NCBI GenBank assembly: GCA_017619755.1
Contig: JAFZRU010000047.1
Coordinates: 30,121 to 94,120 of the forward strand
Reading direction: 5' to 3'
DNA from: Prevotella sp.
GTDB taxonomy: Bacteria > Bacteroidota > Bacteroidia > Bacteroidales > Bacteroidaceae
Length of the DNA stretch: 64,000 nt
In this document: positions 47,708 through 62,580 of the stretch, piece after piece
How positions within the stretch are numbered: the stretch's first letter is position 1
Layout: every line of letters begins with the position of its first letter
Program-made: the position numbers and the translations under genes
The notes under the pieces: generated by a model
What the model was told of the DNA's origin: nothing
The model's database searches: none
Seen by the model: only the letters and a program-made list of their open reading frames with translations

Positions 47708-47739
47708 TTTGTATATTTCACGAAAAGTGTTTATCTTTG
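47708..47739 (+). promoter_or_regulatory. Promoter of the ATPase gene
   Basis: TTTG (47708-47711), a 20-bp spacer and TATCTTTG (47732-47739); the ATG at 47766 is 26 bp on. It lies immediately downstream of the 52-bp repeats. Confidence 0.75.
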
Positions 47740-47765
47740 CGGCATTCATACCAAAAAGAAAGTCC

Positions 47766-49208
47766 ATGGCAGGCAATAGGATCATAGGCAGGGAATATGA
47801 GCAGCATATCCTAACGAACATCTGCGAGGAACGTGAGGCTCGTTTGGTTGCGGTTTATGGCCGCCGTCGGGTAGGTAAGACCTATTTGGTGAAGTATTAC
47901 TTCAATGAGCAGTTCGATTTCTTTTTCACCGGCAGTTTTGAAACTCCGATGAAAGTGCAGCTTGCATTGTTCAGGGACGCACTACGTCAGCATAGCGGTG
48001 TGGAGCGTCCTATGCCAAATAATTGGTTTGAAGCCTTTAACCAACTGAAAGAGCATTTGCAGGGATTGCACAAGAAGCGCATGGTGGTGTTTCTCGATGA
48101 GTTGCCATGGATGGCCACGCCCAAGTCCAATTTCCTTGCCGCCTTCACTCATTTTTGGAACACCTGGGCTTCCACGTGCGATGGTCTGAAATTAATTGTT
48201 TGCGGCTCGGCCACCTCATGGATGCTTGACAAGATCATAGGCGACAAGGGCGGGCTTTATGGTCGCTCGTCGCGCTCCATCTACGTGGCCCCATTTCGTT
48301 TGAATGAAATGGAGAAATTCCTCAAACTCCGCAAGGGGATTGTGTGGAATCGCTACCAAATCTTGGAAGTGTATATGATATTGGGTGGCATTCCTTATTA
48401 TCTTGACATGCTGGAGAAGGGCTTGTCTTTCACACAAAACATCGACCGCCTTTTCTATGCCGAGGGGGCGCCTCTACGTATGGAATATGACTTCCTCTTC
48501 CGTTCACTCTTCAAGTCGGCTGCTACGTACCGGCAAGTGGTGGAGGTGTTGGCTGCGAAGAACAAAGGTCTGACCCTCAAGGAAATCAAGAAGGAACTTC
48601 AATTGAAGGATGGCGGTAGTCTGTCGAAGGTGCTGGGTAATTTATGCAAATGCGATTTCATTCGTGAATATGCCGTCTTTGGCAAGAAAGGCAAGGGTCG
48701 CCTCTTCCAGATTACCGACCTTTTCTCGCTGTATCATCTGAAATTTTTGAATGGCAGGAAGGGTCTTGACCCGAGTTTTTGGTCAAATATCAGTGACTCG
48801 AAGCGTAAGGCGTGGACTGGCTATGCATTTGAGCAGGTTTGTCTGCACCATGTCGCACAAATCCGTGAGGCATTGGGAACAAAGGGCGTACTCACCCATG
48901 TGTGCTGTTGGTCTTCTCCAAAATACACCGATAAGGATGGGACCGAATGGCCGGGCGTGCAAATCGACTTGTTGCTTAGCCGTAACGACCATGTCATCGA
49001 CATTTGCGAGATGAAATACTGTCAGGAAAAATATGTGGTGACAGGAAAATACGAAAAGTTGATTAGGGAAAGGAATGCTGTCTTCGCACACAAAACTGAG
49101 AGCAGCGACGCCCTCCATAACATACTGGTCACCACATACGGCCTGAAGTCCAACCTCTACTCCGATGTCTTCCAAAACACCGTCACCATGGAGGACTTGT
49201 TCAAATAA
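47766..49208 (+). CDS. AAA-type ATPase with C-terminal DUF234 nuclease-like domain
   Basis: A 480-residue protein of the archaeal/bacterial ATPase group common in Bacteroidetes. Walker A is GRRRVGKT (32-39), Walker B is MVVFLDELPW (about 111-120), and VCGSATSWM is sensor 1. A winged-helix segment lies near residues 265-320 (KGLTLKEIKKELQL). The C-terminal DUF234 domain has the PD-(D/E)xK signature QIDLLLSR then DICEMKY. The role of this family is unknown; links to mobile elements and defence have been proposed for it. ATG 47766 is preceded by a consensus promoter; the longer frame from 47709 would overlap it. Confidence 0.85.
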   Translation: MAGNRIIGREYEQHILTNICEEREARLVAVYGRRRVGKTYLVKYYFNEQFDFFFTGSFETPMKVQLALFRDALRQHSGVERPMPNNWFEAFNQLKEHLQGLHKKRMVVFLDELPWMATPKSNFLAAFTHFWNTWASTCDGLKLIVCGSATSWMLDKIIGDKGGLYGRSSRSIYVAPFRLNEMEKFLKLRKGIVWNRYQILEVYMILGGIPYYLDMLEKGLSFTQNIDRLFYAEGAPLRMEYDFLFRSLFKSAATYRQVVEVLAAKNKGLTLKEIKKELQLKDGGSLSKVLGNLCKCDFIREYAVFGKKGKGRLFQITDLFSLYHLKFLNGRKGLDPSFWSNISDSKRKAWTGYAFEQVCLHHVAQIREALGTKGVLTHVCCWSSPKYTDKDGTEWPGVQIDLLLSRNDHVIDICEMKYCQEKYVVTGKYEKLIRERNAVFAHKTESSDALHNILVTTYGLKSNLYSDVFQNTVTMEDLFK

Positions 49209-49255: not shown

Positions 49256-52200
49256 ATGAGAGGAAAAATCGACTGTTTTTTGCCCTGTGGCGAGCCGCAG
49301 TTGGCAGAAGCCATGGTGAGCCAGTTGCGTCAGGACAACTGTGTCCGGCATATCTACCTGTTGGTGGATGGCAGCCGTGAGATGGAGGAAATCCCGGAGG
49401 GCTGCACCCCTCTTCCGGTGGACCGTCTGCACTCCACCTCCACCGTTCTTGCCATTGAGCAACACGTCACGGCCCCCTATCTGCTCCTGTTCACCAAATC
49501 CACGTCCGTCACCTTGGGCTTCCGTGCCACCGACCGCCTCCTGCATGTGGCATCTGACTCTGGCGCTCTTTGGGTGTATGCCGACCATCGCTCCGTGGAA
49601 GGAGGCGTGACGTCGCCCCATCCCGTCATCGACTACCAGGAAGGCAGCCTTCGCGACGACTTTGACTTTGGTTCCGTGGTGCTTGTCCGTTCCGACATCT
49701 TGCACGACTACGCCCGCCAGTCCTCCCTTCCCGCCTACGAGCATGCCGGCTTGTACGACTTGCGGCTCTTCATCAGTCGGCAAGGGCAACTGCTCCACCT
49801 CAACGAATTCCTCTATACCGAGAAAGAGTTGGACCTCCGTGCCAGCGGTGAGAAGCAGTTCGACTATGTGAATCCCCGCAACCGTGAAGTGCAGGTGGAG
49901 ATGGAAGCTGCCGTCACCCACCACCTCCGTGAACTGGGTGCGCTTGTGGACTCCACGTCTTACAGCACTCCCGACTTCGGCGAGCAATCTTTCGCCTGCG
50001 AGGCCACGGTGGTCATTCCCGTCTTCAACCGCGAGCGTACCATCTGCGACGCCGTGGACTCCGCCCTTTCGCAGCACACCACCTTCCCATATAACGTCAT
50101 CGTCGTGGACAACCACTCCACCGACGGCACCACGCGGCTTCTCTCCGAGTATGATGACCCACGGCTCATCCACCTCATCCCCGAGCGCACCGACTTAGGC
50201 ATCGGCGGCTGCTGGAACATGGCCGTGCTCGACGACCGCTGCGGTCGCTTCGCCGTCCAACTCGACAGCGACGACCTGTACTCCTCACCCGACACCCTTC
50301 AGCGGGTGGTGGACGCTTTCTACCAACAGAAAGCCGCCATGGTGGTGGGGTCCTACCGCATGTGCGACTTCCATCTCAACACCCTTCCTCCCGGTCTCAT
50401 CGACCACCGTGAGTGGACCGATGACAACGGCCCCAACAACGCCCTGCGCATCAACGGTCTCGGAGCGCCGAGGGCTTTCTTCACCCCCCTGTTGCGACAG
50501 ACGCTATTCCCCAATACCAGCTATGGTGAGGACTACGCCATGGGGCTTGCCTTTAGCCGCCGCTATCGCATCGGTCGCATCTTCGACGAGCTGTACCTCT
50601 GCCGCCGTTGGGGTGGCAACAGCGACGCCGCCTTGAGCATCGAGCGCGTCAACGCCAACAACCTCTACAAGGACCGTCTGCGTACCGTCGAACTGACCGC
50701 CCGGAAGCAGTTGGCAGGTCAGCAAGACACCGACACCGGCGAGGGTTCGCTTAACCGCTTCTTCAACCGCCAGCTCGACCGTTGGGATGACGCCCGTCAG
50801 CGATACCGGGACCTCCACGACGTGCAGACGCGCCAGCTCGACCACGCCGACCATGCCCTGCCGCTTACCTTGCAATGGAACCCGGCGCGCATCGTCTCCA
50901 CCGGAGCCAGTGTGAAGCCCGCATCCATCGAACAGCGGCCCTGCTTCCTCTGCGAGCGCAACCGCCCGGAGGTGCAGTTCGCCAAGTCATTCGACGGGAA
51001 GTTCGACATCCTTGTCAATCCCTTCCCCATCCTCCCCACCCATTACACCATCGTGGCCAAGAAGCACCAGCCACAGCAGATACGCGACAACTACTACGAG
51101 ATACACCGCCTCTTGGAGTTATACCCCCACCTGACCGTTTTCTACAACGGCCCACGGTGCGGCGCCTCCGCTCCCGACCACCTGCACCTGCAAGCTGGCA
51201 CCACGGGGGTGCTTCCCCTCCAGCAGGCATGGCCCCGCCTGTTGCGCGAGGCCACCCCCTTGCATCGTGTCAACGACAGCGAGGGCCTCTTCCTCCTCCA
51301 CGACTACCCCTGTCCGGCCCTGTTTGTGAGAAGCAAGAACAAGGACACCGGCCAGGCACTCTTCAAAAAGCTCTACGCCGCCCTCGACAGCGAGGTGGCC
51401 GACAGCGAGCGGGAGCGTGGCGAGGAACCCATGCTCAACATCGTGGCCTGGGTGTATGAGGGCGAAGTGGTGAGCGTCGTCTTCCCACGTCGCCGACACC
51501 GCCCACGTAGCTACACAGCTCCGGGCGACAGTCGGAGGATGGTGAGTCCCGGCGCCCTTGACATGGCCGGTCTTGTCATCACGCCCCTTGAGGCCGACTT
51601 CCGCCGTCTCGACGCCGCAGAGGTCACCGGCATCCTTCGCGAGGTGGCCATTGGCGACGACGATCTCCAGCGCGTGGTGTCCGTCCTTCGTGACGGGCAG
51701 CAACAGCCCGTAGTGAAAGCCATGGAGCGTGAGCCTTCCGTGTCCGTGGGGATTGTGGCCGGCGACAACATACGTTTCGCCCTCAACAAGCCCTATGTGG
51801 CCAAGGGCGAAATCCTTGAGGGTACACAGGAGGTGGAGTTGTCGGAGGGATGCATCAAATGGAACGGGAGTCTCTACCGCGAACTCCTCTTCACACCCAA
51901 GAGTCCCGACGCGACGTTCTCCCTCTTCGAGGTGACCATCGGCCTCGACTTCCACTGGGAGCGCCGCGAGACACAAGTCTTCCCCGGTGCGCTCAAATTA
52001 GTGGTGGAGGCCGACAAGATTCACGCCATCAACCTGGTGCCTGTGGAGCAATACTTGGCCAGCGTCATCTCCAGCGAGATGAAGGCCACCTCGTCGCCCG
52101 AACTGCTCAAGGCCCATGCGGTCATCTCCCGCAGTTGGCTTCTGGCCCAGATGGAGCGTCGCCGCCAACACAAGGAGGCCACCGACAGTTTCTTCTCCTT

Positions 52201-53035
52201 CATCAAGAAAGAGGACGAAATCATCCGATGGTACGACCGCGAGGACCACACCATCTTCGACGTGTGTGCCGACGACCACTGCCAGCGTTACCAGGGTGTC
52301 ACCCGCGCCACGGAGAAGCGCGTGGTGGAGGCGGTGAAGGCCACCCGTGGCCAGGTGCTCTGCCATGGCGGTGAGATTTGCGACGCCCGTTTCAGCAAGT
52401 GCTGTGGAGGTGTCACCGAGGAGTTCCAGTATTGCTGGGAGAATGTTCCCAAGGCTTATCTTCGTGCCGTGGGTGACAGTCCGGAGGCGGTGCTGCCCAA
52501 CCTTCGCGTGGAGCAGACTGCCCGCAAGTGGATCATGGGCCGTCCGTCGGCTTACTGCAACACCACCGACTGCAAGGTGCTGGCCCAGGTGCTCAACGAC
52601 TACGACACGGAGACCACCGATTTCTACCGCTGGTGCGTGGAGTACGGCCAGGAGGAACTGTCGGCCTTGGTGAGCGAGAAGTTGAAGATGGATTTCGGCG
52701 GCATCAAGTCGCTTACACCAATGGAGCGTGGCCGCAGCGGACGCATCAGCCGTCTGCGGATAGAAGGTGAGAAACGCTCTCTTGTCATCGGCAAGGAACT
52801 GGAGATTCGCCGTGCGCTCAGCACCTCCCACCTGCTCAGTTCCGCCTTCGTCATCGACACGGAGGGCGACGAGGGCGGTCTGCCCGCACGTTTCATCCTC
52901 CACGGAGCCGGATGGGGCCATGGCGTGGGCCTGTGCCAGATAGGAGCCGCCATGATGGGCGAGCAGGGAGCCGCCTACGACGAGATACTCCTTCACTATT
53001 ATCAAGATGCAGAAATAAGAAAACTTTATAAATAA
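49256..53035 (+). CDS. Glycosyltransferase-DUF4922-SpoIID fusion protein
   Basis: A 1259-residue fusion. Residues about 1-230 look like a diverged GT-A glycosyltransferase. Residues about 248-470 are a regular family 2 glycosyltransferase ([36 protein letters not shown]). Residues about 555-790 are DUF4922, with PDHLHLQ (H-x-H-x-Q, near 640), the HIT/GalT-type nucleophile of nucleotide-sugar phosphorylases and nucleotidyltransferases. Residues about 915-1255 are a SpoIID/LytB domain ([42 protein letters not shown]), a lytic transglycosylase acting on peptide-free glycan. No signal peptide or membrane helix is visible, so it would be cytoplasmic, unlike typical SpoIID. It lies 47 bp after the ATPase gene and 5 bp before an AmpG-like permease. 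Confidence 0.88.
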
Positions 53036-53040
53036 GCAAG

Positions 53041-54318
53041 ATGGAAAAGAAGAGAAGCCCATGGGCTTGGATACCCACGTTGTATTTCGCCGAGGGACTG
53101 CCCAATGTGGTGGTGATGACCGTGGCGGTGGTGATGTATATGGAAATGGGCATGACCGACACCGAGATAGCCCTTTATACGAGTTGGCTGGGACTGCCGT
53201 GGGTCATCAAACCGCTGTGGAGCCCCTTTGTCGATTTGTTCAAGACAAAACGTTGGTGGGTGCTTGCCATGCAGTTGCTTTTGGGCGCGGCGTTCGCCGG
53301 TGTGGCTTTTACGGTGAAAACGTCTTTTTGGTTTCAGGGAACGATGTTCTTCTTCTTCCTCATGGCCTTTTCGAGTGCCACCCACGACATCGCCGCCGAT
53401 GGTTTCTACATGCTCGACTTGGACAGTCACGACCAGTCGTGGTTTGTGGGCATACGAAACACCTTCTACCGCATCGCCGTCATCTTCGGACAAGGCGTGC
53501 TTGTATGGTTGGCTGGTGAATTGCAGAAAATATACCCTGACAGCAAGGCTTTTACTTGGAGCCTCATCTTCTTCGGCCTCTCTGCCATCTTCATCGCCAT
53601 CTGGTTGTATCATCGCTTTGTCATGCCGAGGCCTGTTGACCGAAATAATGAGGGGCTGACGGCACGTGACGTGGCCAAGGGCCTGTGGCAGATGCTCTCG
53701 TCGTTCTTCACTAAGGTGCCGGTGAAGCAGGTTGTGTTCGTATTGCTCTTCCTGTTGCTTTATCGCTTCCCTGAAGCCATGCTCACCAAGATGGCAAGCA
53801 CGTTCTTGCTACGCCCGATGGAGGAGGGTGGCCTGGGTTTGACCAAGGAGGCTTTCGGCCTGGCATACGGTACGGTAGGTCTCATCGGACTGCTCTTGGG
53901 CGGCATCGTGGGTGGCATATTGGCCAGTCGAGATGGACTGAAACGGTGGCTTTGGCCCTTTGTCTGCGCCATCACCTTGCCCGACATCGTGTATGTGTAT
54001 CTTGGTTTTGCACAGCCTGACAGCCTGTGGCTCATCAGCACGTGCCTCTTCATCGAGCAGTTTGGCTATGGGTTGGGATTCACCGCACTCACGCTCTACA
54101 TGCTCTATTATAGCCAGGGTGAGTTCAAAACATCTCATTATGCCATTTGCACGGGGTTGTCCTATCTTGGTTTGATGCTTCCGGGCATGGTGTCGGGATT
54201 GATCAAGGACGCAGTGGGGTACCAGACCTTCTTCGTCTTGGTGATGTTCTTCTGCATCATCACCTTTGTCGTAGCGGCCTTCATCAAGATCGACCCTGAG
54301 TTTGGCAAGAAAAAGTAA
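53041..54318 (+). CDS. AmpG-type major facilitator permease
   Basis: A 425-residue inner-membrane transporter with about twelve helices. YFAEGLPNVVVMTVAVVMYM, WLGLPWVIKPLWSPFVDLF and ATHDIAADG are the AmpG hallmarks. In Gram-negative bacteria AmpG imports GlcNAc-anhydroMurNAc muropeptides for wall recycling. It starts 5 bp after the DUF4922-SpoIID fusion, supporting co-function. Substrate in this organism is inferred. Confidence 0.88.
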   Translation: MEKKRSPWAWIPTLYFAEGLPNVVVMTVAVVMYMEMGMTDTEIALYTSWLGLPWVIKPLWSPFVDLFKTKRWWVLAMQLLLGAAFAGVAFTVKTSFWFQGTMFFFFLMAFSSATHDIAADGFYMLDLDSHDQSWFVGIRNTFYRIAVIFGQGVLVWLAGELQKIYPDSKAFTWSLIFFGLSAIFIAIWLYHRFVMPRPVDRNNEGLTARDVAKGLWQMLSSFFTKVPVKQVVFVLLFLLLYRFPEAMLTKMASTFLLRPMEEGGLGLTKEAFGLAYGTVGLIGLLLGGIVGGILASRDGLKRWLWPFVCAITLPDIVYVYLGFAQPDSLWLISTCLFIEQFGYGLGFTALTLYMLYYSQGEFKTSHYAICTGLSYLGLMLPGMVSGLIKDAVGYQTFFVLVMFFCIITFVVAAFIKIDPEFGKKK

Positions 54319-54325
54319 TGACCCT

Positions 54326-55615
54326 ATGAGGCAGAAGAGAATGCAATCGACAACTGTGGTGACCGACGGTCGCTCGTGGCTGTGGCCGCCCCTCTTGGGT
54401 TTTGCCCGCGGCATGGCCGTGGTGGCCTTGTTGTCGGTGTCGATGGTGATGTTCAAGCGCCTTGGCATGAGCAATTCTTGGGCATCGTGCGGCACGGCCT
54501 TGTTGGCTGTGCCATACGTGTGTCGGCAGTTGCTGCGTCCTTTCGTGACGGCCATGCCCCACCGAGGGTGGTGGATGGTGGCCATGCAGTTGCTCTTCGC
54601 CTTGTCTTTGCTGGGCGTCGCCTTGACGGTCACCCCCGGAACGGAGGGCGGTGCGTCGTGGTGGTGGTTGGGGGTCGGTGCCTTTGCCGCCGCCTTTCAC
54701 GACATTCTGGCCAGCGACTATTGCAATGCGCTACGGGGCAACCGCAAGCCCGGCCGCACATTGGTGTTGGCCACGCTGCCACTGCTCGCCGTCGTGCTGG
54801 GTTTGGGCATCACCTTGGTGATAGCGGGCGACATGGAGGTGCTCACGCGTGACGTGGCGTACTCCTGGAGTTTGGCTTTCGAGGTGTTGGCAGGTATGGC
54901 GTTCGTCGTGGCCTTGGTGACGGCTTTGGCCAAGCCTCGCCATGTGGGTGGGGAGGTTATGCCGCTGAAAAAGGCGTGGCGTGTTCAAATGAAGGAGTTG
55001 GAAAGGTGGTGGTGCGCCTCTCACCAGTGGACTTTCGCCGCTTTCATCGTGCTTTTCACCTTGCATGAGTGTTTCATCTTGAAGGGCGTGTTGCTCTTCT
55101 TGGTTGACCCGGGGAGCATCGGCGGTTTGTCGATGGGACCGCAGGAGGTGGCCTTCGCCCACAGCACGGTGGCGGGGATGGCCATGGTGGCCGGGTGCGT
55201 GGCGGGCTTCACCATGATGCGTCGTGACGGTCTGCGCCGATGGGTGTGGCCCATGGTGCTTGCCATCACCGTACCAGACATCCTGCTGCTCTATTTGGCG
55301 TACGCCATGCCTTCCGAGTTGTCGCTTGTCACAGCATGCCTCGCCGTGGAGAGTTTTGGTTGCGGTTTCGGCTTGGCGGGCTTTGTGTGCTACCTGCGTT
55401 ATTATGGTCCGCGTCGCGGCTTGCCGGCCTACGGTGACTCCTGCCTCGCCCTTGTGGCGCTTTCCGCTTGTTTGTCGGGAGTGGTCACGGGATTTTTGCA
55501 AGACTATTTCGGCTATCGCCGCTTCTTCCTCTTCGTCGTCTTGATGGCCATCGTCGCCGCCGCCTCCTTGGCCTTGCTGGGGAAAATTCGGTCTGGTCAC
55601 AAGAAAAGCAGCTGA
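54326..55615 (+). CDS. Diverged AmpG-like permease (tandem paralogue)
   Basis: A 429-residue membrane protein aligned along its length with the preceding permease: FARGMAVVALLSVSMVMFKRLGMS against FAEGLPNVVVMTVAVVMYMEMGMT in two blocks, LRRWVWPMVLAITVPDILLLYL against LKRWLWPFVCAITLPDIVYVYL. The HDIAADG motif has become HDILASDY, so the substrate may differ. ATG 54326 is used, since the longer TTG start at 54302 overlaps the previous gene; ATG 54341 is also possible. Last gene before a terminator at 55646. Confidence 0.82.
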   Translation: MRQKRMQSTTVVTDGRSWLWPPLLGFARGMAVVALLSVSMVMFKRLGMSNSWASCGTALLAVPYVCRQLLRPFVTAMPHRGWWMVAMQLLFALSLLGVALTVTPGTEGGASWWWLGVGAFAAAFHDILASDYCNALRGNRKPGRTLVLATLPLLAVVLGLGITLVIAGDMEVLTRDVAYSWSLAFEVLAGMAFVVALVTALAKPRHVGGEVMPLKKAWRVQMKELERWWCASHQWTFAAFIVLFTLHECFILKGVLLFLVDPGSIGGLSMGPQEVAFAHSTVAGMAMVAGCVAGFTMMRRDGLRRWVWPMVLAITVPDILLLYLAYAMPSELSLVTACLAVESFGCGFGLAGFVCYLRYYGPRRGLPAYGDSCLALVALSACLSGVVTGFLQDYFGYRRFFLFVVLMAIVAAASLALLGKIRSGHKKSS

Positions 55616-57473: not shown

Positions 57474-58670
57474 ATGAAAATCAAGAATCTTTTGAAAATG
57501 GCAGCCATTGCTGCCGTCATTCCCTTCGGTTTCGCATCTTGTTCAAGTGATGATGACAATGACACAACAACTGTTACAGGTTCCCAGGCTGCCGTGGACC
57601 AGGCATGCAATGATTGGAAAACGGCTCGTGCCAACTGGGAGAACACCGAAGCCTTCCTCTTTGGAGCAGCCGACGTTTACTCCATCGACCCTCACACCGA
57701 CACTTGGCCGGTAGCCGCCAACGACCTGGCCGACGTGCTGCGTGACGAGAAGGCGATGTCGAATCTCGACAACTTCATCAAGACAGCCAATTCCGGTATC
57801 CTGGGTTATCACGGTTTGGAGTATGTGCTCTTCCGTCAGGGACAACCCCGACAAATCAGTCAAATCACCAACTTGGAGTATGAATACATCTGTGCAGTGG
57901 CCAAGGACCTCTACAACGCCACGGCAACCCTGGAGGCTGCATGGGACTCACGTGAAAGCAATGCCGAACGTCATAAGATTGCCATCAACTATGTGGCAAC
58001 ACACAACGCCATCAATGACGACGGCGATGCCGAAGGTTCCTTGGGCTCGTTCCAAAACTTCGGCAAGGCCTTCAAGAACCCTGGTACCGGCGACTGGGAA
58101 ACGGCTCTCGACGCCACGCTTGAAATCATCTCCGGCTGCCAGGACATCATCGGCGAGGTGGGTGACTCGAAAATAGGACTTCCCTACACGGGTGAGGATG
58201 CCACCTACATTGAATCACCTTACGCCTACAACTCCATCACCGACTTTTATGACAACATCGTCAGTTGCAAAAACGCACTCTTTGGACAGATGGGAGCAAC
58301 ATCACCCATACAGCAATCGCTGATTTATTTCTGTCAGAATGCCGGCAATCCGACGATGGCCAACCAAGCCAACATCGTGGTGACCAAGCTTGATGCTGCC
58401 TTGGCAAAAATCAAGGCAATGAAACATCCGTTTGCCCTCTACTATTCCGATGCCTCGTGCAAGGTGGCCATCGATGCGCTGGGCGAATTGGACGACGCTC
58501 TTGGTGCACTCTCCGAGACATTGGCGGGATATGGAGGCAACAAGACCGTGGAAGCACAGTGCCAAGTCATCAATGAGAACTATGTGGACAACGTGGTGGT
58601 GGCCACCTACCACACTCTGGCCGACAACGCACAAAAGCTCTATCAGTCAATCGTGAATATAAAAAAGTAA
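57474..58670 (+). CDS. Imelysin family lipoprotein (M75-like iron-regulated protein)
   Basis: A 398-residue lipoprotein with lipobox FASC (Cys23). The imelysin domain spans nearly the whole mature chain and keeps the GxHxxE motif (GYHGLE, His113, Glu116). Family members (ICMP, EfeO/EfeM relatives, P. gingivalis and Bacteroides IPA-like proteins) are periplasmic or outer-membrane metal-related proteins induced by low iron; the protease assignment is doubted. The next gene encodes a di-heme protein, a pairing seen in several genomes. Confidence 0.9.
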   Translation: MKIKNLLKMAAIAAVIPFGFASCSSDDDNDTTTVTGSQAAVDQACNDWKTARANWENTEAFLFGAADVYSIDPHTDTWPVAANDLADVLRDEKAMSNLDNFIKTANSGILGYHGLEYVLFRQGQPRQISQITNLEYEYICAVAKDLYNATATLEAAWDSRESNAERHKIAINYVATHNAINDDGDAEGSLGSFQNFGKAFKNPGTGDWETALDATLEIISGCQDIIGEVGDSKIGLPYTGEDATYIESPYAYNSITDFYDNIVSCKNALFGQMGATSPIQQSLIYFCQNAGNPTMANQANIVVTKLDAALAKIKAMKHPFALYYSDASCKVAIDALGELDDALGALSETLAGYGGNKTVEAQCQVINENYVDNVVVATYHTLADNAQKLYQSIVNIKK

Positions 58671-58676
58671 GATGAA

Positions 58677-60383
58677 ATGAACAAACCATTCCTTTTCGGT
58701 CTTGTTCTGATGGGAACCTTCATCGCCGCCGGTTGTTCCGACGACGATGATGCCACAACCACAACGTGGGAAATAGGCGACCCGACAACGACGGACTATC
58801 CGGAAGACTACTACGCCGGGGGACTGCTCGGCACTACATCGGTGAACACCGCCACGGCTTTCGAGCAGCCCTCCAAGGCTGTGGAAAACGCTGGAATGAT
58901 GACGGCCTTCAACGAAGGCGAGTATCTCTTTGAGAAAGACTACAACACCAACACCGATGGTGCCTTCCATGGACTGGGGCCTGTCTATGTGCGTCGAGGA
59001 TGCCTTTACTGCCATCCCGGTTACGGCCATGGCGCACGACAGACGGAATACAAGGCCGACACACACCGAAACGGCTATCTGCTCGTCATCTACGACAAGA
59101 CCACCAATGCTTACATCCGCTCCGTGGCCGGCATGCCGCAGACCGGTGCCGTGAAACCTTTCAAGGCCCCTGTTGACGAGAATCAAATCAGCATCGTATG
59201 GAACAACTACACCGACGAGTGGGGGAACAAATTCCCTGACGGCGAAACCTATTCACTCATCTACCCAGAGGTGACCATCCCCTATAGTGCCCATTATGCT
59301 CCAGTCGTCGTTGCTCGTGGAGGTTCCGACGTGACACTCACCGAAGCAGAATACAACAACGACATCGGCGTGTTGTTGGAGTCAACCATAGGCATATATG
59401 GCACTGGACTTACAGATGCCATCCCCGACGAAGACATCACCGCACAATGGAGAGCTGAAAGTGAGTATTTCAACAGCATCGGCCGCACCGACGCACTGAA
59501 TCCTGCTATGTGGAACCAAGCGACAAACTCTTGGAACAGCTATTACAGCAACTCGCTGCAAGGCGACGGAACGAAGTATGTGCGCCGCTACACCTACGCC
59601 ATGTCGCGTGGACCCATTCTTGATGCCGCCGGCGCAAATGCCATATGGAACATCACCAACGTGACACGCTCCGACCGCCGATATCATTATCTCGACCTCG
59701 CAGGTGTCTATTATGCCACGAAGGCGTCGCAAGACCCGGAGGTGCAGGCAGGCTTCACCGACTACATCAACCGCATGGACCCCGCAAAGGCGCACCCCGA
59801 ATGGCATACTGGCGACCTGCAGAAAGACATTTACACCTATCTGACCAGCAAGTCGCTTGATGCTGAGATGACCGATGCACAGTATAAGAACCTCATGATC
59901 TGGCATCGTGGACTGGCTGTTCCCGCGGCACGCAATACCACCACCACGGATTTCCAAGAGGGCAAGCGTCTGTTCACCGAAATCGGTTGCGCCGCCTGTC
60001 ACCGTCCCTCGTGGCAGACTGGCGAGGACCACATCCAAGACCCTGCCAGATTCTTCCTCTCCGACAGCGACATGCCACGCTATCCTCGTCAGAAGATATG
60101 GCCCTATACTGACTTCGTCCAACATCGTCTGTGGATGAAGAACGACATACGTACAGGTTGGTGCCGTACCACACCGCTGTGGGGACGCGGACTGGCCGCG
60201 AAGTGTGGCAGTGGGGTGGAACGTCTGCACGACTGCCGTGCCCGCAATGTCATGGAAGCCATCATGTGGCATGGCTGCAAAAACGAGGGAGGCACCAGCG
60301 ACGCCTACCATTCCGTCGTGAAGTTTCGAAACCTGACGAAAAAGCAACGTGACCAGATGATTTATTTTATTGAATCCATCTAA
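58677..60383 (+). CDS. Di-heme oxidoreductase (DUF1111), lipoprotein
   Basis: A 568-residue lipoprotein with lipobox AAGC (Cys20). Two c-type heme sites are visible: CLYCH (109-113) and CAACH (about 438-442). TTPLWGRGL in the C-terminal part is typical of DUF1111 di-heme thiol oxidoreductase/peroxidase-like proteins, which are often encoded next to imelysin genes. Hemes would be attached in the periplasm by the CcsBA system encoded directly downstream. The reaction is unknown. It starts 6 bp after the imelysin gene. Confidence 0.9.
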   Translation: MNKPFLFGLVLMGTFIAAGCSDDDDATTTTWEIGDPTTTDYPEDYYAGGLLGTTSVNTATAFEQPSKAVENAGMMTAFNEGEYLFEKDYNTNTDGAFHGLGPVYVRRGCLYCHPGYGHGARQTEYKADTHRNGYLLVIYDKTTNAYIRSVAGMPQTGAVKPFKAPVDENQISIVWNNYTDEWGNKFPDGETYSLIYPEVTIPYSAHYAPVVVARGGSDVTLTEAEYNNDIGVLLESTIGIYGTGLTDAIPDEDITAQWRAESEYFNSIGRTDALNPAMWNQATNSWNSYYSNSLQGDGTKYVRRYTYAMSRGPILDAAGANAIWNITNVTRSDRRYHYLDLAGVYYATKASQDPEVQAGFTDYINRMDPAKAHPEWHTGDLQKDIYTYLTSKSLDAEMTDAQYKNLMIWHRGLAVPAARNTTTTDFQEGKRLFTEIGCAACHRPSWQTGEDHIQDPARFFLSDSDMPRYPRQKIWPYTDFVQHRLWMKNDIRTGWCRTTPLWGRGLAAKCGSGVERLHDCRARNVMEAIMWHGCKNEGGTSDAYHSVVKFRNLTKKQRDQMIYFIESI

Positions 60384-60393
60384 AACAGTATTG

Positions 60394-62580
60394 GTGAACA
60401 AAAAACTCATCTTCGCCCTATACACACTCATCGTGGTGTGTATAGGGTTTGCCACCATCATAGAGAAACATAGCGGCACTGGTTTTGTCAATGAGCATGT
60501 CTATGGTACCTGGTGGTTTGCCGGCCTATGGGTTGTGCTTTCCGTGGCAGCCTGTGCCTATGTGATAAGGCAACAACTGTATAAGCGTGCTGCCGTCATG
60601 TTGTTGCACGTGGCTTTTGTGGTGATCCTGACAGGTGCCTTGGTCACCCATCTTTTCGCCCGTAGTGGCACCATCCGACTTCGTACGGGCATCCCTTCCA
60701 GGACATATATTGACAAGGATGGACACTATCAACAGTTGCCCTTCTCTTTGACACTAAAAGAGTTCAGCATTATCTATTATCCTGGCACTGATGCACCACT
60801 CGACTACCAAAGCGTCATTCAGCATGTTGGTGGAGAAGATGTCCTTGTCTCCATGAACAACATCGGCCACATCGATGACTACCGCTTCTTTCAGTCAAGC
60901 TTCGACTCTGACGGCAAGGGCGTTTCACTTGGTGTAAGCCATGACCCATACGGTATTGCCATCACCTACTTCGGCTACCTCTTGCTGCTGGCTGGCATCA
61001 TCGCCACGCTGCTGTCACGCAAGACACGGATGCATGTACTTTACCGCAAAGCCACGCAATCCCTTGCCATTCTCTTGCCTCTTGCCTTTTATGCCTCATC
61101 TGTCCACGCTGACGACGGTTTGCCCGTTGTCGATAAGGAAATTGCCCACCGTTTGGGAGCCATCAATGTGCTATACAACAACCGTATCTGCCCGCTCAAC
61201 ACTGTGGCGACAGACTTCATCACCAAACTATCGGGCAGTGCTTCATGGGAGGGCTATTCAGCAGATGAGATTTTCGTCAGTTGGATGATATACTATTCCC
61301 CATGGGAGAAACAGAAACTGATTCGTGTGAAGAACCATGAAGTGCAACAGTTGTTGGGCATCAACGGACAGTGGGCTTCCTATTGCGATTTTCTGGATGA
61401 GTACCACGAGTACAAGTTGAAAAAAGCCGTTGAGAAACAGAAGAAAGGTGATGGCTCCCATGGCGGGAAAGCTTTGATGGAAGCTGATGAGAAATTCCAT
61501 GTTGTTGAGATGTTCTATCGTGGACAGTTCATCAAGATGTTTCCATATCGCAGTGGAAAGGCTGTCAACTGGTATATGCCAGGCGGACAGTCGCTACCCA
61601 AGGAAATCCCCGTCAAGGAGCAGTTCTTCATCAAGCAGTCCATGGACTACCTCACAGAGAGTATTGTGACAGGACAGCGTGACAGGGCATACGAGCTCAT
61701 TGCAAAAATCAAACTCTTTCAAAATGAAATGACAAACAATCAGCTGCCCAGTGGGAATAAGACCAAGGCAGAGATTTTCTACAATACGATGCGTTGTCAG
61801 AAATGGCCTGTTTTCTTGGCTCTCACCCTCAGCCTGTTGGTGTGCTTGGCATTGATTGCAACGACATGGAGAGGAACGTGGTTCAAGGTTTTGACTCTTT
61901 CATTCATCGTATTGTTGGCAACGTATGTCATGCTTCTACTCGGCCTACGTTGGTGGCTGAGCGGACACATACCCGTGAGCAACGGCCACGAGGTGATGCT
62001 GTTCATGGCATGGGTGTTGCTCTTGTTGACCATCCTTCTTCGACACCAATTTCCCATTGTCTCGGGGTTCGGCCCACTCATCGCTTCTTTTTGTCTGTTG
62101 GTGGCCATGTTGGCGGGCAGCAATTCGCAGATAACTCCGCTGATGCCCGTGCTACAATCGCCACTACTCTCCATTCATGTGATGACAGTGATGTGCGCCT
62201 ACGCTCTGTTTGCTCTGCAATTGTTGTTGGGTGTGCAGGCTTTCCTCTTGATAAGGAAAAAAAGAAATGATGAGTTGGAGAGGGTCACCGCACTGTCGCA
62301 ATTGTTGCTCTACCCCGCCGTCTTCCTGCTTGCTATCGGCATCTTCCTCGGAGCAGTCTGGGCAAATGTGTCGTGGGGCAACTATTGGTCGTGGGACCCC
62401 AAAGAGTCATGGGCTCTCATCACCCTGATGATTTATGCCGTGCCATTTCACATAAAGTCAGTCGGGATATTCCGTAAGCCCTGTTGCTACCACATCTACA
62501 TGGTGGGGGCCTTCCTTGCGGTCATCATCACTTATTTCGGTGTCAATTATATTTTGGGAGGGATGCATGGGTACATTTAG
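60394..62580 (+). CDS. Fused ResB-CcsA cytochrome c synthase
   Basis: An about 728-residue membrane protein, the system II CcsBA type. The N-terminal ResB-like half has four helices with ARSGTIRLRTG after the third; a periplasmic loop of about 200 residues follows; the C-terminal CcsA half carries the WWD motif WGNYWSWDPKESWALIT near 665. It carries heme out and links it to CxxCH motifs. The start is uncertain: GTG 60394 (MNKKLIFALYT) is used, with TTG 60391 and TTG 60370 as alternatives; the last overlaps the di-heme gene. Its only visible client in the window is the di-heme protein. Confidence 0.88.
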   Translation: MNKKLIFALYTLIVVCIGFATIIEKHSGTGFVNEHVYGTWWFAGLWVVLSVAACAYVIRQQLYKRAAVMLLHVAFVVILTGALVTHLFARSGTIRLRTGIPSRTYIDKDGHYQQLPFSLTLKEFSIIYYPGTDAPLDYQSVIQHVGGEDVLVSMNNIGHIDDYRFFQSSFDSDGKGVSLGVSHDPYGIAITYFGYLLLLAGIIATLLSRKTRMHVLYRKATQSLAILLPLAFYASSVHADDGLPVVDKEIAHRLGAINVLYNNRICPLNTVATDFITKLSGSASWEGYSADEIFVSWMIYYSPWEKQKLIRVKNHEVQQLLGINGQWASYCDFLDEYHEYKLKKAVEKQKKGDGSHGGKALMEADEKFHVVEMFYRGQFIKMFPYRSGKAVNWYMPGGQSLPKEIPVKEQFFIKQSMDYLTESIVTGQRDRAYELIAKIKLFQNEMTNNQLPSGNKTKAEIFYNTMRCQKWPVFLALTLSLLVCLALIATTWRGTWFKVLTLSFIVLLATYVMLLLGLRWWLSGHIPVSNGHEVMLFMAWVLLLLTILLRHQFPIVSGFGPLIASFCLLVAMLAGSNSQITPLMPVLQSPLLSIHVMTVMCAYALFALQLLLGVQAFLLIRKKRNDELERVTALSQLLLYPAVFLLAIGIFLGAVWANVSWGNYWSWDPKESWALITLMIYAVPFHIKSVGIFRKPCCYHIYMVGAFLAVIITYFGVNYILGGMHGYI

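Follow-up and report, generated by a model that had tools for sequence, protein, structure and literature searches.

Cell-wall sugars are recycled in Escherichia coli through AmpG, NagZ and AnmK, and in Pseudomonas through the AmgK-MurU shortcut. Lytic transglycosylases, the exported relatives of SpoIID among them, form 1,6-anhydro bonds, and the SpoIIDs of known activity are, to our knowledge, exported or membrane-bound. We describe here a SpoIID domain that appears not to be exported. It is part of a fused protein encoded in a 64,000-nucleotide stretch of a Prevotella sp. genome (contig JAFZRU010000047.1, positions 30,121 to 94,120; the window, hereafter), immediately before a gene for an AmpG-like importer. 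An earlier note on this DNA had read the protein as a four-part fusion (two glycosyltransferases, DUF4922 and SpoIID) that breaks imported glycan and re-uses the sugars, in a pathway of a type not yet described.

An operon of this kind is already known in one species, Tannerella forsythia (PMC5388701). The gene order there is xanthan lyase - gtf - gtf - lytB 'amidase enhancer' - ampG - ybbC - murT - murK - murQ. This operon for muropeptides and N-acetylmuramic acid (MurNAc) is co-transcribed under GppX control and was earlier termed glycosylation related (PMC5388701). T. forsythia depends on AmpG to grow on peptidoglycan fragments, and the major substrates of this transporter were judged to be peptide-free disaccharides of N-acetylglucosamine (GlcNAc) with MurNAc or with 1,6-anhydro-MurNAc (anhMurNAc), that is, GlcNAc-MurNAc and GlcNAc-anhMurNAc (PMC7670621). 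No AnmK orthologue was predicted, and the later strategy for anhMurNAc was left to be explored (PMC7670621). In the accessible portions of the two reports we found no role assigned to the gtf and lytB genes (PMC5388701, PMC7670621). The claim that such a pathway is undescribed therefore has to be changed as far as the operon is concerned. We also found no function given for a module of glycosyltransferase (GT), DUF4922 and SpoIID in the open-access literature that we searched.

We found that the window protein is a lineage-specific fused form of a wider three-part module, consisting of GT, DUF4922 and a distinct subtype of SpoIID. The fused gene is an open reading frame (ORF) that starts with ATG, encodes 1259 amino acids and has no internal stops. 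The protein and its domains are:

49256..53035, + strand, fused GT-like / GT2 / DUF4922 / SpoIID protein with no evident signal peptide (ORF and profile searches)
49256..49975, + strand, N-terminal domain, residues 1-240, possibly degenerate GT-A-like (weak hhalign match, invariant residues)
49976..50740, + strand, GT2 domain, residues 241-495, with LDSDD, GEDY and RRW motifs (PF00535, 67.8 bits)
50741..51745, + strand, DUF4922 domain, residues 496-830, diadenosine tetraphosphate (Ap4A)-phosphorylase-like, with CxxC and HxHxQ (PF16269, 203.5 bits)
51746..53032, + strand, SpoIID domain, residues 831-1259, with predicted catalytic Glu941 and putative zinc ligands His998, Cys1004, His1008 and Cys1009 (profiles and alignment)

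Pfam recognised Glycos_transf_2 at residues 251-380 (E 1.5e-18), DUF4922 at 502-648 (1.9e-60) and SpoIID at 920-1036 (4.2e-24). The SpoIID domain scored above the curated cut-off (PF08486, 85.4 bits vs 23), and the NCBIfam SpoIID_LytB model TIGR02669 covered residues 924-1255 with 160.2 bits (cut-off 83.3). We rejected identity with the sporulation SpoIID, since the equivalog model TIGR02870 gave 124 bits against a cut-off of 234.75. The second domain has both the profile match and the DxD-type motif expected of GT2; its LDSDD, GEDY and RRW motifs were invariant (21/21 rows), and its best match in the PDB was chondroitin synthase (2z86/2z87, E 4.9e-13). All 18 aligned rows of DUF4922 keep the CxxC, a further His and the HxHxQ. 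This domain resembles the GalT/Ap4A phosphorylase superfamily, in that its profile matches Ap4A phosphorylase 2 (4i5t in the PDB, E 3.1e-6) and it has the HxHxQ-type motif, but it constitutes a separate Pfam family. The CxxC/His set presumably has a metal role, as in GalT.

The identification of the N-terminal region as the first of two glycosyltransferases is weakly supported. A Pfam search with its first 245 residues, taken to E 5, gave no family, and comparison of its profile with that of the following GT2 domain (hhalign) gave a probability of 41% and a pairwise E of 2.8e-4. R133 D134 D135 F136 and F138 G139 were invariant in 21 of 21 rows. The GT2, DUF4922 and SpoIID parts of the proposed fusion stood up to profile searches; its first part is possibly a degenerate GT-A-like domain.

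The fused ORF is confirmed. A scan of named genomes returned at least 574 relatives, of which the best 80 were kept; nearly all are titled Prevotella, Prevotellaceae or close kin, and these carriers are, again by title, largely Prevotella-type bacteria from gut, rumen and mouth. Because 71 of these 80 loci hold a single full-length fused ORF, we judged an assembly artefact to be an unlikely source of the fusion. Among 35 other genomes of the window's genus, DUF4922 was present in 33, with frames of at least 1200 amino acids in 24; of the nine shorter frames, three were 296-332 amino acids and the rest 744-909. One locus, from Prevotella histicola (L123), has the module split into a 496-amino acid GT frame and a 737-amino acid DUF4922-SpoIID frame.

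The best-80 set is silent on other families, and for those we used 198 genomes from the order. The expectation that DUF4922 and SpoIID also occur as separate genes held in these families. The parts are usually separate there and often side by side, with sizes of ~490 amino acids (both N-terminal domains), ~310 (DUF4922) and ~430-450 (SpoIID). Partial fusions joined GT to DUF4922 (L167, L169, L170) or DUF4922 to SpoIID (L160, L168, L173), and one genome (G094) has two GT copies, one beside SpoIID (C1) and the other fused to DUF4922 (C9).

The three parts occur together. DUF4922, GT (E 1e-40) and module-type SpoIID were each found in 43 of the 198 genomes, and all three were found in 42 (Fisher p 1e-40 for the pairing of DUF4922 with GT and likewise with SpoIID, without correction for descent). 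We picked module-type SpoIIDs by hand for their longer match and at least 78 bits; a profile backs this sorting for 42 of them, from the 41 module genomes other than that of the window and from G131. Excluded from the 42 module genomes were G206 (DUF4922 at E 2.3e-6, without SpoIID), G046 (GT at E 1.6e-65) and G131 (SpoIID alone). In at least 10 module genomes, mostly drafts, SpoIID lies on another contig or distant from DUF4922 (e.g., G168, G037, G090, G140, G186), and the co-occurrence therefore goes beyond mere linkage.

The SpoIIDs of the module appear not to be exported. We compared the 42 module-type proteins with 24 other SpoIIDs, hand-picked from the same order. Judged from sequence, no signal peptide was evident at the N-terminus of the fused protein or in any of the 42, in agreement with the earlier note, and nothing marks them as exported or membrane-anchored. 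One of the 42 (L240) passed a hydrophobicity threshold over the first 45 residues, by virtue of a stretch inside the domain, vs 20 of the 24 others. Among the four others that fell short of it, three carry a hydrophobic stretch ahead of the chosen ATG and one (L224) is signal-like by eye. In addition, the domain match begins at residue 7-15 in 32 of the 42 module proteins; the remaining 10 are fused, have a frame that runs into the preceding gene, or have a late match start.

These proteins share with the SpoIID lytic transglycosylases of Bacillus subtilis, Clostridioides difficile and Waddlia the catalytic Glu, the His/Cys/His/Cys set and a C-terminal GHGVG. They differ in lacking a signal peptide, in having GT and DUF4922 as fusion partners or linked genes, and in having residues specific to the module. 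The catalytic Glu (Glu941 in window numbering) was kept in 42/42 module SpoIIDs and 24/24 others, and His998, Cys1004, His1008 and Cys1009 were kept in 42/42 module SpoIIDs. With the HxHxQ of DUF4922 also retained in 18/18 rows, the loss of catalytic residues that the note had named as refuting its reading was not seen. In our alignment these SpoIID residues correspond to E101, H134, C140, H145 and C146 of C. difficile SpoIID, whose activity is abolished by loss of E101, C140 or H145 and partly by loss of H134 or C146 (PMC6221140). Module-type SpoIIDs also have invariant residues of their own, His954 (Gln in 24/24 others), Asp1043, Arg1045, Lys1048 and Glu1055, which suggests that they act on an altered substrate.

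The gene next to the module is consistent with a role in salvage. In the window it is:

53041..54318, + strand, AmpG-like MFS transporter, 425 amino acids (TIGR00901, MFS_1)

As had been claimed, it starts 5 bp past the fused gene, whose stop codon ends at 53035. It scored 168 bits against TIGR00901, under the cut-off of 350, and we call it AmpG-like without placing it in that subfamily. The linkage is conserved: of the 71 Prevotella-type loci that extend far enough, 65 have ampG directly behind the fused gene, and 4 of the other 6 have an AmpG-like frame at another place in the locus. In 41 loci (that of the window and 40 from the order, some clipped at contig ends), for which we annotated one representative of each non-core cluster, the neighbouring ORF clusters were AmpG/MFS (30 loci), BadF-type kinase (17), NamZ (15), golvesin-type (10), MurQ-like (10) and ABC transporter (5). 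No match to NamZ, MurK, MurQ or MurT was found among the 80 Prevotella-type loci. A neighbour gene of ~390 amino acids, which we take to be MurT and label as such, had no Pfam match. The T. forsythia operon, in which AmpG function has been shown, has its genes in the same order as the unfused loci, but gtf and lytB are separate genes there and one protein in Prevotella.

We consider it likely that the module serves cytoplasmic salvage of cell-wall sugars. More tentatively, and with close to an even chance of being right, we infer that it provides an AnmK-free route for the disaccharides imported by AmpG. AmpG would bring in peptide-free GlcNAc-anhMurNAc, together with GlcNAc-MurNAc. Imported GlcNAc-anhMurNAc has no MurNAc-GlcNAc bond, and the target of SpoIID would therefore be the 1,6-anhydro bond, the only bond at the anomeric carbon of MurNAc. 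The cytoplasmic SpoIID, using the same catalytic Glu, would admit water and open the anhydro ring to give GlcNAc-MurNAc; that is, it would substitute for AnmK with no ATP spent. Waddlia SpoIID is muramidase-like on denuded glycan and thus can use water (PMC6635528). We regard ring opening by SpoIID as possible, with somewhat less than an even chance. The GT2 domain might then transfer GlcNAc from MurNAc onto a nucleoside diphosphate, and DUF4922, acting like Ap4A phosphorylase or GalT, might phosphorolyse the nucleotide sugar to GlcNAc-1-phosphate. This splitting of GlcNAc from MurNAc is speculation based on the chemistry of these enzyme families, and in the form written it is rather unlikely. 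Free MurNAc would pass to AmgK/MurU or MurK/MurQ. In its strongest form, ring hydration without ATP by SpoIID and a reversed GT working with DUF4922 as a split disaccharide phosphorylase, catalytic in nucleotide, would let one Prevotella polypeptide replace NagZ, AnmK and MurQ; we think this quite unlikely. The original idea of a single polypeptide that breaks imported glycan and re-uses the sugars is thus partly upheld. Its cytoplasmic re-use is backed by the context, but fusion into one polypeptide is specific to a lineage, within a wider module, and the main reported imports are disaccharides.

The genes present elsewhere in these genomes lean the same way. AnmK was found in 5 of 42 module genomes vs 130 of 156 others (Fisher p 7e-18, uncorrected for descent), and was absent from 37/42 vs 26/156; counted by family, the figures were 5/27 vs 82/93 (p 1e-11). 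A clean swap occurs inside one family, where G107 has the module without AnmK and G211 has AnmK without the module. MurQ-like proteins (at least 160 bits, weaker matches to the model being treated as other SIS proteins) were present in 23/42 module genomes vs 20/156 others, and 41 of the 42 had a MurQ-like or AmgK-like match. The likeness to the E. coli and Pseudomonas routes lies in AmpG-like import and in the AmgK-like and MurU-like genes of the window genome; the difference from the E. coli route is that AnmK is mostly absent with the module and that a cytoplasmic NagZ was not recognised in module genomes. Matches to the NagZ model (NF003740) were weaker than E 1e-20 or lacking in 9 of the 42 (G000, which is the window's, G043, G056, G076, G128, G156, G161, G170 and G174). 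We sampled one NagZ-type protein from each of 20 other module genomes. Every one carries KHFPGHGDT, with a hydrophobic stretch somewhere in the frame's first 90 residues (above 1.9 in 19 of them, 1.80 in L343), and these proteins are therefore probably exported. Short NagZ-type frames (~367-453 amino acids), possibly cytoplasmic, were confined, among the matches listed, to genomes that lack the module (G183, G169, G223, G069, G121, G113, G217, G053 and others).

In the window genome (3.7 Mb), we found no AnmK, no NamZ and no MurQ above background, and the NagZ motif that we searched for was in none of 8 GH3 frames, all in an assembly that is 85.9% complete. The AmpG-NagZ-AnmK pathway was thus not recognised in it, beyond import. 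This genome has an AmgK-like kinase and an adjoining MurU-like gene, both under the equivalog cut-offs. The kinase is fused to a RapZ C-terminal domain and lies beside the MurU-like uridylyltransferase (L215:2-2328, G000:C21), an arrangement suggestive of MurNAc salvage under amino-sugar-phosphate control.

Several points weigh against an AnmK-free route through the module. Reversal of a glycosyltransferase is thermodynamically awkward unless pulled. Five module genomes keep AnmK (in one of them as two pieces within a single frame), and both module and AnmK are lacking from 26 genomes. The inverse pattern of AnmK and module is tied to descent. On a weakly supported tree, based on a single AmgK-like gene and covering 80 of the 198 genomes, there were no fewer than 9 changes of the module and 15 of AnmK, and only 3 independent pairs fell on well-supported branches (2.4 opposite and 0.1 the same on average, median p 0.5). 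The pattern leans in the predicted direction and is not significant after this control; it is not proof, because too few independent pairs were left. The NagZ model had matches in 188 of the 198 genomes and none over its cut-off, and therefore is badly calibrated for this order and leaves room for a divergent cytoplasmic NagZ. Nineteen module genomes are without MurQ, and AmgK-like proteins are not enriched with the module (30/42 vs 137/156 others). The incompleteness of the window genome makes its missing genes weak evidence. Non-anhydro products did not build up with the SpoIID of B. subtilis (PMC6635528). Lastly, T. forsythia showed restricted growth on free anhMurNAc (PMC7670621), and ring opening would therefore need to prefer the disaccharide.

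A cytoplasmic SpoIID could also act as a classical lytic transglycosylase or muramidase that cuts longer imported oligomers of denuded glycan, with GT and DUF4922 processing the sugars, which corresponds to the reading in the note. The AmpG neighbour and the catalytic Glu and zinc residues kept in 42/42 fit this, as does the action of SpoIIDs on denuded glycan (PMC6635528, PMC6221140). However, the main substrates of T. forsythia AmpG were judged to be disaccharides (PMC7670621), without a MurNAc-GlcNAc bond that SpoIID could cleave, and the missing AnmK step would stay unexplained; we consider oligomer cutting unlikely. It is similarly doubtful that the module builds, with GT and DUF4922 making a cytoplasmic glycan or glycosylating imported fragments (for storage, signalling or protein glycosylation) and SpoIID trimming or transglycosylating the product. 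The invariance of the GT2 motifs in 21/21 rows, a polysaccharide synthase as the best solved match of the GT, an ABC transporter cluster in 5 of 41 loci that could be an exporter, and the earlier description of the T. forsythia operon as glycosylation related (PMC5388701) are in keeping with biosynthesis, but salvage genes are the most frequent annotated neighbours (17 of 41 loci with a BadF-type kinase, 15 with NamZ and 10 with a MurQ-like gene), in a set of 10 annotated clusters that may have missed further glycan genes.

It is very unlikely, in our view, that the protein is exported without a recognisable signal and works on the sacculus. Export would bring it into line with the SpoIIDs of known activity, and with the non-module SpoIIDs sampled from the order, of which 20/24 passed the hydrophobicity threshold and the other 4 look signal-bearing by eye. 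Against this are the count of 0/42 module SpoIIDs with a signal peptide, the start of the domain match at residue 7-15 in 32/42, and the partner domains, whose nucleotide substrates are cytoplasmic in known relatives.

The module supplies three co-inherited candidate enzymes for the gap left by AnmK in T. forsythia (PMC7670621), and a step left open in a known pathway becomes testable through three named genes. If the AnmK-free route is correct, an enzyme fold that cuts the cell wall would have moved into the cytoplasm, DUF4922 would gain its first function, and a way to conserve the energy of the glycosidic bond would be suggested.

One further feature of the window lies directly downstream of the AmpG-like gene:

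54302..55615, + strand, second, divergent AmpG/MFS-like protein, 437 amino acids (TIGR00901, 60 bits)

It overlaps the end of the first AmpG-like gene. We rejected it as a conserved member of the module, since, of 63 Prevotella-type loci long enough to show it, 2 have a second MFS gene behind ampG. Upstream of the fused gene by 47 bp and on the same strand is a gene for an ATPase_2/AAA protein (47709-49208), which is probably unrelated. Further downstream (57474-62577) are genes for an imelysin (M75), a di-haem oxidoreductase and a ResB/cytochrome-c-assembly protein.

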